Shown piece after piece: positions 43,000 through 62,728 of a stretch of 64,000 nt of DNA (position 1 is the first letter of the stretch; every line of letters starts with the position of its first letter). The translations under genes were made by a program, and so were the position numbers. The stretch is from NCBI RefSeq assembly GCF_004217145.1, contig NZ_SHKR01000011.1, positions 186,001-250,000 on the forward strand, in the 5' to 3' direction. Source of the stretch: Kribbella rubisoli. Its GTDB lineage: Bacteria; Actinomycetota; Actinomycetes; Propionibacteriales; Kribbellaceae. The notes beneath the pieces are model-generated. The model was not told the DNA's origin. It searched no databases and saw only the letters and a program-made list of their open reading frames with translations.

Positions 43000-43912
43000 A
43001 CATCTCGTCCCAGTGAGCGAAGATCGTGCGCCCGTGGCCCTCGCCCGGTCGCACGATCACCGTGGCGTTCGGGATCCGTTGGGCAAACCAACGAGCATGT
43101 GAGGGCGGCACCATCCGGTCCGCCTCGCCGTACCAGAGCCAAGTAGGCACGGTGAGGTGCGCGGGATCCACATCCCACGCGCCTCCCCAGGCCACGTTGT
43201 CCCGCGCATAACCGTCGTACGACGCCAGCGCCTCGCGCGTGTCGGCCGCCCACACTTCACGCCCCGCCGCGTCCAGCCAACCGAGCTCCTCCCCCGGCAC
43301 GCCTTCGAAGAACGCGTCGACCATCGCCGCGTCCTCGAGGCTCAGCATCCGTTCGAAGTCCTGCGCCGCCTGCTCGCGAAAGCCGTCCAGTGCACCGATG
43401 ACATCACCCGCATCCACCAACGCGAGCAGTGGCAGGTCCGGGTCGTCCGGGTCCGGCGGCTCGACCAACCGCCACGGACCGACACCGCCCGCGAGCCCAA
43501 CCGCCTTCACCCGTTGCGGATCCGCCAACCCGGTGGCGATGGCATACGGCCCGCCGCCGGAAGCGCCGAGCACGGCGAACTCACCGACGCCAAGCTGATC
43601 AGCGACCTGCAGCGTGTCATGAGCAACCGACGCCAAGCTCGGCGAGGTGTACGTCGACCCGCCGTACCCGGGCCGACTGAACGAGATCAACCGAACCCCA
43701 CACCGCTCGGCAGCCCCATCCCCCAGCGCCGCCTGCAACCGGCCAGACGGCGTCCCATGCTGAAAGATCACCGGCGCCCCAGCTGGGTCGCCGCCTTCCC
43801 AGGTCTCGACGACCCTGTCGTCCGCAAGCACGATGCGCTCTGCTCCAGGCAAACTAATCACCCACCGTTACCGTTGTGGCGGATCCCTCGGGACCCGGGG
43901 GAAGGAATCATC

Positions 43913-43957
43913 ATGTCTCAGCAGTACCCGCGCGACTCGAACGGCAGCGTGAAGTAG
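43913..43957 (+). CDS. possible 14-residue peptide ORF
   Basis: ATG at 43913 is preceded by GGGGGAAGGA at a 6-base spacing, one of the best ribosome sites nearby, and encodes MSQQYPRDSNGSVK before a TAG. It lies between the divergent alpha/beta hydrolase and the structured repeat at 43973. It may be a leader peptide or a small protein. Only the ribosome site supports it. Confidence 0.3.
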   Translation: MSQQYPRDSNGSVK

Positions 43958-43972
43958 CTGCGGACGTGACTT

Positions 43973-44048
43973 GTGACCTGGGAGCCCGCGTTGTAGGCGG
44001 AGACCTGAAATAGCAGGTCTCAGCCGACCGGTTGGGGTCTCAGGTCAC
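43973..44048. repeat. structured repeat with 45-bp core, copy A
   Basis: The core is 44002-44046. It contains GACCTG-AAATAG-CAGGTC-TCAG (44002-44023), 11 variable bases, then GGGTCTCAGGTC (44035-44046). GAGACCTG/CAGGTCTC forms a hairpin. The last segment also pairs with GTGACCTG (43973-43980). The same 22- and 12-base blocks with the same spacing recur at 62684-62728. Confidence 0.75.
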
Positions 44049-44084
44049 CATTCACGCACCACGGGCCGGGTAAGGCCTGCGCGC

Positions 44085-45926
44085 ATGAGCCGGGGCCATC
44101 GGAACATGCGCAGAATCGCCCCGTCTGCGGTCGTCGTCGTGCTTCTGGCGATGATCACGCCAACAGTTCCGCCGGCGGTGGTCGCGAGTTGGGCTCCGCC
44201 GTTGAGCACTCGCGGTCGGTACGTCGTCGATGCGAACGGCAACCGGCGCCGAGTGCCTCGCCGGCATCGCGTTCACCACCCGAGTCGGATCCAGTGGTAC
44301 CCCGGATGCCGTGTATTGCCGCAAACTCGTCCCATGAGCCTTCCCGTGATCCCTGCACCCGCTCACCTCACCCTCAGCGACAACACCTTCACCCTCACCT
44401 CCTCGTCAGGCGTGACAGCCGAATCACCCGAGCTGACCGAACTCGCCGCCCGCTTCGTCGCGGACGTGCAACTCGACTGCGGCCTCACCCTGACCGGCAA
44501 CACCGGCATCACACTCGCCCTCGAGAGCCCGCAGGCGGACGACGTACCGGCGGCGGCCGGGGTGCGCGCTGATGGTGAGCCAGTGGACGAACGGCACGGC
44601 CTGGAGATCACCACCGAGGGCATCCGGATCTGGGGTGCGACGCCGGAGGCGGTCTACCGTGGTCTCACCTCGCTGCGCCAGTTGATCTCCGCACGTCTGC
44701 AGGACGCCGCCGCGGTCCTACCTGCCGCCCGTATCGTCGACGGACCACGGTTCGCCTGGCGTGGGCTGTCGCTCGATGTGGTCCGGACATTCCACGGACC
44801 TGACGAAGTACGCCGCATCATCGACATGCTCAGCCTCTACAAGCTCAACGTCCTCCACCTCCACCTCACGGACGACCAGGGCTGGCGGGTCGAAGTGCCG
44901 TCGCGACCGTTGCTGACCGAGGTGGGTGCAACGGGGGCGATCGGTGATAGGCCGGGTGGTTACTACACGCAGGCGGAGCTCGCCGAGCTCGTGCAGTACG
45001 CCGCCGACCGCTACGTGACCGTCGTACCCGAGATCGACATGCCGGGGCACACGTCGGCGGTGTTCAAGGCGTACCCGTCGCTCGGGCCCGACGAGATCCA
45101 CAGCGTCGACCTGGGCAACGGCGACAGTCTGCAGCTGAACACTCTCGACCCCGGCCGCGACGAGACGTGGACGTTCGTCGAGGAGGTGCTGGATGCGGTC
45201 ATCCCGCAGTTCCCGCAGAGCGCGTACGTACACATCGGCGGTGACGAGACGTGGGGCATGGCCGACGAGGACCACGCGGCGTTCGTCGAGAAGGCGGCTG
45301 CGCTCGTCCGTGCCCGCGGGAAGAAGGTCGTCGGCTGGCAGGAGATCGCCCGTGCCAGCCTCGACGCCGAGGACGTCGTGCAGTTCTGGCTGGACCTCGA
45401 CGTCGACTCCATGGTCCAGAACCCCGACCTGCCGACGCCGCCCGAGGACCTGCTGCCGATCCTGGTCGAGGGCCTACGCAAAGCGAAGTACGACGCCCCG
45501 AAGGCACTCGAGCAGGGCACCAAGCTGATCGTCTCCCCCGTCACCTGGCTGTACTTCGACCGCCCGCACGCCGACGCGTCCTCGGACCCGGACCAGGAGG
45601 AGGCGCGCAAGCACCTCGGTCTCGAGTTCTACGGCGCCGCGTCGATCGAACACGGCGTCTCGTGGGACCCGGTCGACAGCATCCCCGGCATCGACTCCGC
45701 CGACCAGGTAGCCGGCGTCGAGGCCGCGATCTGGTGCGAGAGCATCACCACCCCGGAGGACCTCGAACTCATGCTCCTCCCCCGCCTCCCCGGCGCCGCC
45801 GAGAAGGCCTGGTCCCGGCCAGGCACCGACTGGCCGACGTACGCCGCCCGCCTGGCCCAGCAATCCCCCACCTGGCGCAACCGCACCTGGACCTGGCTCC
45901 ACTCCACCGAGGTCAACTGGACCTAG
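44085..45926 (+). CDS. GH20 beta-N-acetylhexosaminidase with fused foreign signal segment
   Basis: The GH20 part starts at Met of MSLPVIPAPAHL (44334) and has the N-terminal GH20b-like domain and the barrel with HLHLTDDQGWRVE and GGDET (Asp304-Glu305 counted from 44334, the catalytic pair). It removes terminal GlcNAc or GalNAc. The frame stays open 83 codons further upstream to ATG 44085 or 44106. That extension encodes a signal peptide (MRRIAPSAVVVVLLAMITP) and PPLSTRGRYVVDANGNR, which looks like the start of a secreted GH5 enzyme. If translation begins there, the enzyme is secreted; if at 44334, it is cytosolic. No ribosome site marks 44334. Confidence 0.85.
   Translation: MSRGHRNMRRIAPSAVVVVLLAMITPTVPPAVVASWAPPLSTRGRYVVDANGNRRRVPRRHRVHHPSRIQWYPGCRVLPQTRPMSLPVIPAPAHLTLSDNTFTLTSSSGVTAESPELTELAARFVADVQLDCGLTLTGNTGITLALESPQADDVPAAAGVRADGEPVDERHGLEITTEGIRIWGATPEAVYRGLTSLRQLISARLQDAAAVLPAARIVDGPRFAWRGLSLDVVRTFHGPDEVRRIIDMLSLYKLNVLHLHLTDDQGWRVEVPSRPLLTEVGATGAIGDRPGGYYTQAELAELVQYAADRYVTVVPEIDMPGHTSAVFKAYPSLGPDEIHSVDLGNGDSLQLNTLDPGRDETWTFVEEVLDAVIPQFPQSAYVHIGGDETWGMADEDHAAFVEKAAALVRARGKKVVGWQEIARASLDAEDVVQFWLDLDVDSMVQNPDLPTPPEDLLPILVEGLRKAKYDAPKALEQGTKLIVSPVTWLYFDRPHADASSDPDQEEARKHLGLEFYGAASIEHGVSWDPVDSIPGIDSADQVAGVEAAIWCESITTPEDLELMLLPRLPGAAEKAWSRPGTDWPTYAARLAQQSPTWRNRTWTWLHSTEVNWT
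44206..44337 (+). pseudogene. relic coding fragment overlapping the GH20 leader
   Basis: In another frame an open stretch with coding-like composition runs to a TGA that overlaps the ATG at 44334 (ATGA). From ATG 44230 it reads MRTATGAECLAGIAFTTRVG and ends CRKLVP, 35 residues. The adjoining GH5-like N-terminal piece is in the GH20 frame. Together they look like the two ends of genes joined by deletion. The source of this fragment is unknown. Confidence 0.3.
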
Positions 45927-61775: not shown

Positions 61776-62690
61776 ATGAGCCCAGCCCCCCGCACCCCCG
61801 ACAAACCTCTCGACGACTCGCTCGAGGACTTCGAGCATCGGGTTGTGGAGGTTGGTGGGGTTGCGAAGACGGTGCATGTGACGGGCTCTGGGCCGGCTGT
61901 TGTGGTTATGCCGGAGATGCCTGGGATCAGCCCGGATGTGGCGCGGCTCGCGCGGTGGGTGCGGGACGCCGGCTTCACCGTGTTCGTGCCGTCGTTGTTC
62001 GGGGTGGACGGCGCCTACCCGACCGCCGAGGACGGCGAGGCGATCATCCGGAGAGCCTGTGTGAGCGCGGAGTTCAGCGCGTTTGCCGGCGGCGGGACGA
62101 GCCCGGTGAGCGCATGGCTGCGCGGCCTCGCCCGGATCGCGCACGACGAAGCCGGCGGAGCGGGTGTGGGTGCGATCGGGCTCTGCTTCACCGGCAACTT
62201 CGCCCTCACGATGGCGCTCGAGCCGGCCGTGATCGCGCCGGTCGTCAACCACCCGTCGCTTCCGCTGGACGCCCCGGGCGAGCTCGAACTCTCGCCTGCC
62301 GACGCGGACGCGCTGGCGGAGCGGTTCCAGCGCGAAGACCTGCAGGTCCTCGCGTACCGGTTCCAGGGCGACCGCTGGTGCACCGGCCAACGCTTCGCGG
62401 CGTACCAACGGCTCCTCGGCGACGCCTTCCTCGGACGCGTACTACCCGCGGACGCCGCAAACCCAGACCCACCACCGTTCTTCCGCGACGTCGTGGGATG
62501 CGCGCACAGCGTGGTAGCAGCCCACTTCGTAGACGAGACCGGCCACCCCACAGTCCAAGCCCGCGACGAGATCCTGGCCTTCCTCACCACCAAGCTGCTT
62601 GTCACATCCGAGCTGGCCGGCCCGTCGGCGGCCACCGCCGCGCAGCCTGCCGTGGCTACTGGGGACCTGGAGCGGCAACCTGGGACCTGA
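61776..62690 (+). CDS. dienelactone hydrolase family protein
   Basis: A 304-residue alpha/beta hydrolase of the DLH type. The nucleophile cysteine (Cys137) is in GAIGLCFTGNFAL, and the final histidine is probably in DETGHPTV. An N-terminal extension precedes VVVMPEMPGISPDVARLARWV. The substrate is unknown. Possible roles are in aromatic or lactone degradation. ATG 61776. A second family of structured repeats overlaps the 3' end, including the stop codon. Confidence 0.83.
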   Translation: MSPAPRTPDKPLDDSLEDFEHRVVEVGGVAKTVHVTGSGPAVVVMPEMPGISPDVARLARWVRDAGFTVFVPSLFGVDGAYPTAEDGEAIIRRACVSAEFSAFAGGGTSPVSAWLRGLARIAHDEAGGAGVGAIGLCFTGNFALTMALEPAVIAPVVNHPSLPLDAPGELELSPADADALAERFQREDLQVLAYRFQGDRWCTGQRFAAYQRLLGDAFLGRVLPADAANPDPPPFFRDVVGCAHSVVAAHFVDETGHPTVQARDEILAFLTTKLLVTSELAGPSAATAAQPAVATGDLERQPGT

Positions 62691-62728
62691 AATAGCAGGT
62701 CTCAGGTTGCTCCATCGGGTCTCAGGTC
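62662..62728. repeat. structured repeat with 45-bp core, copy B
   Basis: The core is 62684-62728: the same 22-base block as at 44002-44023, 11 variable bases, then GGGTCTCAGGTC (62717-62728). Here the arms extend to a long hairpin (left arm GGAGC-GGC-AACCTGGGACCTG, right arm CAGGTCTCAGGTTGCTCC). The TGA of the DLH gene (62688-62690) lies inside, and the array ends at the stop of the convergent regulator gene, so it may terminate both. Confidence 0.75.

Follow-up and report, generated by a model that had tools for sequence, protein, structure and literature searches.

The closest described counterparts of the locus analyzed here are the glycoside hydrolases of families GH20 (PF00728 and PF02838) and GH5 (PF00150) and the leaderless genes of Actinobacteria. 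According to passages in two reports, leaderless genes are common in Actinobacteria, and the motif TANNNT approximately 12 bp before the start is a mark of such genes (PMC3160421, PMC3898074). The window, by which we mean the whole analyzed stretch of 64,000 nucleotides from the genome of Kribbella rubisoli, contains a GH20 gene that is like the family in its domain order and catalytic domain. The best solved matches of the GH20 protein are 4c7d and 1hp4; unlike these enzymes, the 530-residue form encoded in the window lacks its own signal peptide. The leader that precedes GH20 is the N-terminus of a gene of the GH5 cellulase type. By contrast with GH5 cellulases, only the ends of this gene are kept in the window, and the catalytic domain is gone. 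An intact counterpart from the related genome G015 encodes a protein of 629 residues that matches PF00150, and its best solved matches are CelE2 (8fc0) and endocellulase E1 (1vrx, 1ece). A conserved hexamer upstream of the GH20 start agrees with the leaderless genes of Actinobacteria in its location at −12 to −7, in having A and T as its second and sixth bases, and in the lack of a Shine–Dalgarno sequence; however, its first base is C, and not the T of TANNNT. Among the matches listed in literature searches, no paper title concerned this locus.

Results

The reading frame at 44085–45926 is open throughout, and its translation runs from the leader into GH20 with no stops in between (Table 1). 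The first approximately 54 of its 613 residues form a signal-like leader followed by WAPPLSTRGRYVVDANGNR, and a domain search places the beginning of the GH20b and GH20 catalytic domains at residue 87. The catalytic domain scores 263 bits for PF00728, for which the curated cut-off is 22.3, and the GH20 translation contains HIGGDETWG, which we take to include the catalytic Asp–Glu pair. Among the 18 genomes compared, a signal-like leader in the frame of GH20 is found in the window only. GH20 domains are encoded at three other places in the same genome, one of them with a signal-like start; therefore, the strain may have a secreted GH20 independently of this locus.

Table 1 Positions of the features of the GH5–GH20 locus, numbered from the first letter of the window.
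Feature	Position	Strand	Remark
Gene A remnant, MSQQYPRDSN joined to GSVK and stop	43913..43957	+	First 10 and last 4 codons joined in frame
Long hairpin, copy of a dispersed palindromic repeat	43965..44056	.	92 nt, between both gene remnants
Fused ORF: GH5 leader, out-of-frame linker, and GH20	44085..45926	+	613 aa
GH5 5' remnant, signal-like MRRIAPSAVVVVLLAMITPTV... then PPLSTRGRYVVDANGNR	44106..44246	+	~12 codons shorter than in G015
Deletion junction	44243..44251	.	~1.6 kb of GH5 absent relative to relatives
GH5 3' remnant, last 28 codons and stop	44251..44337	+	Frame differs from that of the leader
Conserved CAAACT hexamer, candidate −10 element for leaderless transcription of GH20	44322..44327	+	−12 to −7 of the ATG
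Complete GH20 beta-N-acetylhexosaminidase gene	44334..45926	+	530 aa; own signal peptide absent

The initial annotation had recognized a GH5-like export leader in frame with GH20, and the alignment to the intact GH5 gene of G015 bears this out: the segment 44106–44243 corresponds to codons 1–58, except that approximately 12 codons around the ATASA cleavage region are missing from the window. The segment 44251–44334 corresponds to codons 602–629 in a frame different from that of the leader. Both ends of the intact homologue are thus kept in order and its core is absent, which makes the GH5 sequence a pseudogene. The tail in the second frame, which had been described as ending at the GH20 ATG, does so: AGIAFTTRVGSSGTPDAVYCRKLVP is followed by the TGA inside ATGA at 44334–44337, and this stop overlaps the GH20 start. 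At the level of DNA, the segment 43862–44400 matches the relatives piecewise, up to approximately position 385 of the query and then from approximately 386. The two matched pieces are approximately 1.6 kb apart in G011, G005, G015, G002, and G013 (1619 bp in G011 and 1615 bp in G005). The DNA matches and the alignment to both ends of GH5 rule out that the likeness of the leader is due to chance.

An intact GH5 gene is present in 10 of the 38 genomes of the genus that were searched, whereas the genome of the window has no intact copy at E ≤ 1e-50. Comparisons of the GH5 head include the relatives with a clear start, which are five to seven of the ten. In five of the ten genomes (G015, G005, G011, G013, and G029), the stop of GH5 and the start of GH20 overlap in ATGA. 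In G003, GH20 lies a short distance downstream of GH5, in G002 and G010 the two genes are approximately 2 kb apart, and in G021 and G028 no GH20 was found at E ≤ 1e-100. An intact GH5 at this place in relatives had been named as a check of the initial annotation, and the five genomes provide it with an ATGA junction identical to that of the window. Because the relatives have an intact GH5 with the same overlap, approximately 1.6 kb was deleted here. As far as sequence comparison can decide, it is confirmed that a GH5 gene stood at this locus, that it lost this internal segment, and that its start now shares the reading frame of GH20.

The short sequence CGCAGAATCG encodes GH5 codons 2–5 in G015, G002, G010, G011, and G029 and is found at 44109–44118 of the window. 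It is also located directly before GH20 in G025 and G016, where it may reflect chance or a common regulatory site.

GH20 is present in 20 of the 38 genomes. Remnants of GH5 adjoin GH20 also in G018, in two pieces, and in G022, whose remnant of 17 codons matches weakly (E = 6e-4). The three remnants lie on separate branches of the GH20 tree and call for three changes, a number that the well-supported branches already require. The window is placed beside G015 (support 82/77, not starred) and G022 beside G005 (98/94). G018 is grouped with G011 and G058 (100/99), and its sister is G058, which is without GH5. Each remnant-bearing branch is near a relative with an intact GH5, and every one of the three decayed genes has kept its GH5 tail. 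The tree is that of a single gene, computed with G014 left out, and the long branches of G003 and the outgroup meet in it, as indicated by a warning of the program. The states of GH5 are no more clustered on the tree than in shuffles (96 of 200 were as low); therefore, the tree does not fix the total number of GH5 gains and losses.

The starts of GH20 could be compared in 18 of the 20 genomes; G014 was omitted because its match begins at residue 89, where the locus ends, apparently at the end of a contig, and G003 because its GH20 aligned only from residue 44. Twelve of the 18 readable starts have CARAMT (CAAACT, CAGACT, or CAGAAT) at −12 to −7, together with anti-Shine–Dalgarno energies of −1.4 or weaker. 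The remaining six are without CARAMT and have Shine–Dalgarno-like energies of −6.8 to −7.2; the contrast is modest, since 1000 random 17-mers of the window have a median of −2.7 and a 5th percentile of −7.2. In G002 and G010 (L027 and L026), GH20 starts with GTG after a Shine–Dalgarno-like site, which indicates that the type of start switches within the genus. In four of the 12 genomes with CARAMT (G030, G025, G016, and G058), the stretch contains nothing that matches GH5 at E ≤ 0.01. Three of these, G025, G016, and G058, have diverged spacers and are identical in all 12 columns from −13 to −2; their pairwise identity averages 0.90 at −14 to −1 and 0.43, 0.33, and 0.23 farther upstream. Because CARAMT without a Shine–Dalgarno sequence is found also where GH5 is undetectable, GH20 probably has its own start of a leaderless type, which would have survived in the window.

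The hexamer is read as part of GH5 in the genomes in which the two genes adjoin. Its codon is AAA in four of the five adjoining GH5 genes and AGA in one, whereas non-adjoining GH5 genes have CGG, AAG, AGC, and GCG at the same site, the fifth (that of G028) being unalignable there. In eight ORFs of the window, AAA makes up 3 of the 78 Lys codons and AGA 1 of the 189 Arg codons. However, AAA is not very rare in the five adjoining GH5 genes, in which it accounts for 1–2 of 9–12 Lys codons, the site included.

The simplest reading of these observations would be that a start signal of GH20 lies inside the 3' end of GH5, at the −10 position of leaderless genes. Since its first base departs from TANNNT, the hexamer is regarded as a candidate for this role. 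A search of 43800–44500 found no promoter of the sigma-70 type, which speaks against a leaderless promoter, and the hexamer could instead be the site of a regulator or a translation signal. The extended motif GCARAMTCG was rejected as a repeated operator because the window shows no enrichment of it (3 occurrences against 2.66 expected).

In the window, translation in the frame of the GH5 tail could start 35 or 8 codons ahead of the overlapping stop, and therefore a short coupled reading frame offers another way to a leader-free GH20. The tail frame is open and has starts also in G030, G025, and G022. Coupling is unlikely to be the sole mode of starting GH20 in G016, where the overlapping frame has five codons and no start, in G018, where a start is found solely two codons ahead of the stop, and in G058, where ATGA is absent. 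Outside these three genomes, translational coupling of GH20 is possible.

The gene that precedes GH5, gene A, normally encodes approximately 256–275 residues, of which the window keeps 14 codons. Gene A is intact at the same place in G015, where it reads MSQQYPHDPN...GSVK, and in G002 and G010, which have near variants. It has no match in Pfam, and no copy was found elsewhere in the same genome at E ≤ 1e-10. The hairpin downstream of the gene A remnant has a z-score of −3.31 with DNA parameters and its core, GAGACCTGAAATAGCAGGTCTC, at 44000–44021. The pattern of the core is present at six places in the same genome and in 4 of the 37 other genomes of the genus, and a reversed control gave no matches in any of them. 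A further copy of this repeat (core GRGACCTGNNATNNCAGGTCYC) is located at 62682–62703 of the window. G015 has a different GC-rich palindrome at the place of the hairpin. In an Rfam search of 43500–44800 with an E-value threshold, the only matches were two microRNAs far under their gathering scores, and no intrinsic terminators of the usual kind were found at 43800–44500. The dispersed repeat is possibly a terminator or a REP-like element.

Discussion

The explanation that we favor with moderate confidence is an internal deletion in GH5 that brought the leader into frame by chance and left GH20 to be produced mainly in the cytosol from its own retained start. The ancestor would have had a gene for a secreted GH5 whose stop overlapped the start of a gene for a cytosolic GH20 in ATGA. 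The deletion of approximately 1.6 kb would have taken the core of GH5 while the leader and the last 28 codons stayed, and the new join would have set the leader into the frame of GH20 by chance. The tail may have been kept because the start signals of GH20 are located in its last approximately 20 bp; these signals would most likely be the −10 element for a leaderless transcript beginning at the GH20 ATG. With these signals retained, translation of GH20 probably still begins mainly at 44334 and gives a cytosolic enzyme, and some of the form with the leader may be produced in addition if transcription still covers the GH5 start. Comparison with the relatives documents, at the level of genome sequences, the deletion, the frame of the fusion, and the conserved start module; from this comparison we infer that the module acts as a promoter of the leaderless type and that most GH20 is cytosolic. 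The comparison predicts transcription that starts just before 44334.

The initial annotation had proposed that deletion of GH5 left its leader in frame with GH20, which the relatives support, and that a cytosolic enzyme was thereby turned into a secreted one, which fared less well. It is unlikely that the fusion is the main product and that GH20 is now secreted via the old GH5 signal peptide, although the leader, its hydrophobic core, and the open frame are intact. The hydropathy of the core, 2.51, is within the range of 2.33–3.18 of the GH5 leaders of six relatives, and a VVA motif seen after the core is a putative cleavage site. In the other 17 genomes, upstream in-frame starts never exceed a hydropathy of 1.28, the highest value at any GH20 ATG being 1.9, in G017. 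The ATG of GH20 is without a Shine–Dalgarno sequence; the anti-Shine–Dalgarno energies are moderate at the leader starts (−5.6 at 44106 and −4.6 at 44085) compared with +1.3 at 44334, which counts against the favored explanation. Ribosomes from the leader start face no stop ahead of GH20, and this counts against it as well. However, the start module of GH20 is conserved also where GH5 is undetectable, the ATASA cleavage region of the relatives is gone from the leader, and the new linker is strongly basic: the net charge of the 30 residues after the putative VVA cleavage site is +7, as opposed to +1 in the GH5 of G015. Furthermore, in-frame open fusions are frequent among simulated deletions, with 33% for the genes of G015, G005, and G013, 8% for that of G011, and 1% for that of G029. 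The GH20 frame of G015 is already open for 539 codons upstream, though an intact GH5 occupies another frame, and together with the 33% of open simulated fusions this rules out the open frame as evidence of selection. Lineage-specific changes are too few for a test of selection (head/tail 2 in 60, 0 in 51, and 2 in 69 nt). Five relatives have GACGAT or GACCAT at −12 to −7 relative to the start of GH5, whereas the window has GGCCAT, a further point against secretion. Because GH20 keeps its own conserved start, a switch from inside to outside the cell is possible and less likely than continued cytosolic expression, and the fused form is most likely a by-product.

It is also doubtful that the locus has two products, a leaderless cytosolic GH20 from 44334 and an exported GH20 from the GH5 start; if it does, a single event gave an existing enzyme a second location. 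The lost cleavage region and the strongly basic linker would be in keeping with a fusion that is translated and poorly exported, so that it is membrane-bound or degraded and GH20 activity falls after the deletion, but the GH20 domains look intact, and we consider this outcome improbable. An assembly error that explains both gutted genes is very improbable. The two separate deletions and the repeat lie within approximately 340 bp in the one genome of the species that was compared; nevertheless, the locus is inside a 2.3-Mb contig of an assembly (8.64 Mb in 19 contigs) that is rated 99.99% complete, and G018 and G022 have parallel remnants of GH5.

With the deletion in GH5 and a mainly cytosolic GH20 as the favored explanation, the locus shows clearly how a deletion can create a gene fusion, and relatives still have the neighboring gene in its intact form. 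It illustrates that, in GC-rich genomes, little can be concluded from a leader that happens to be open and in frame. GH5 was lost repeatedly and its last codons were spared, which suggests that the end of one coding sequence conceals a start signal for the gene that follows. If the fused form is exported, the locus would exemplify directly how an enzyme changes its location in a single step.
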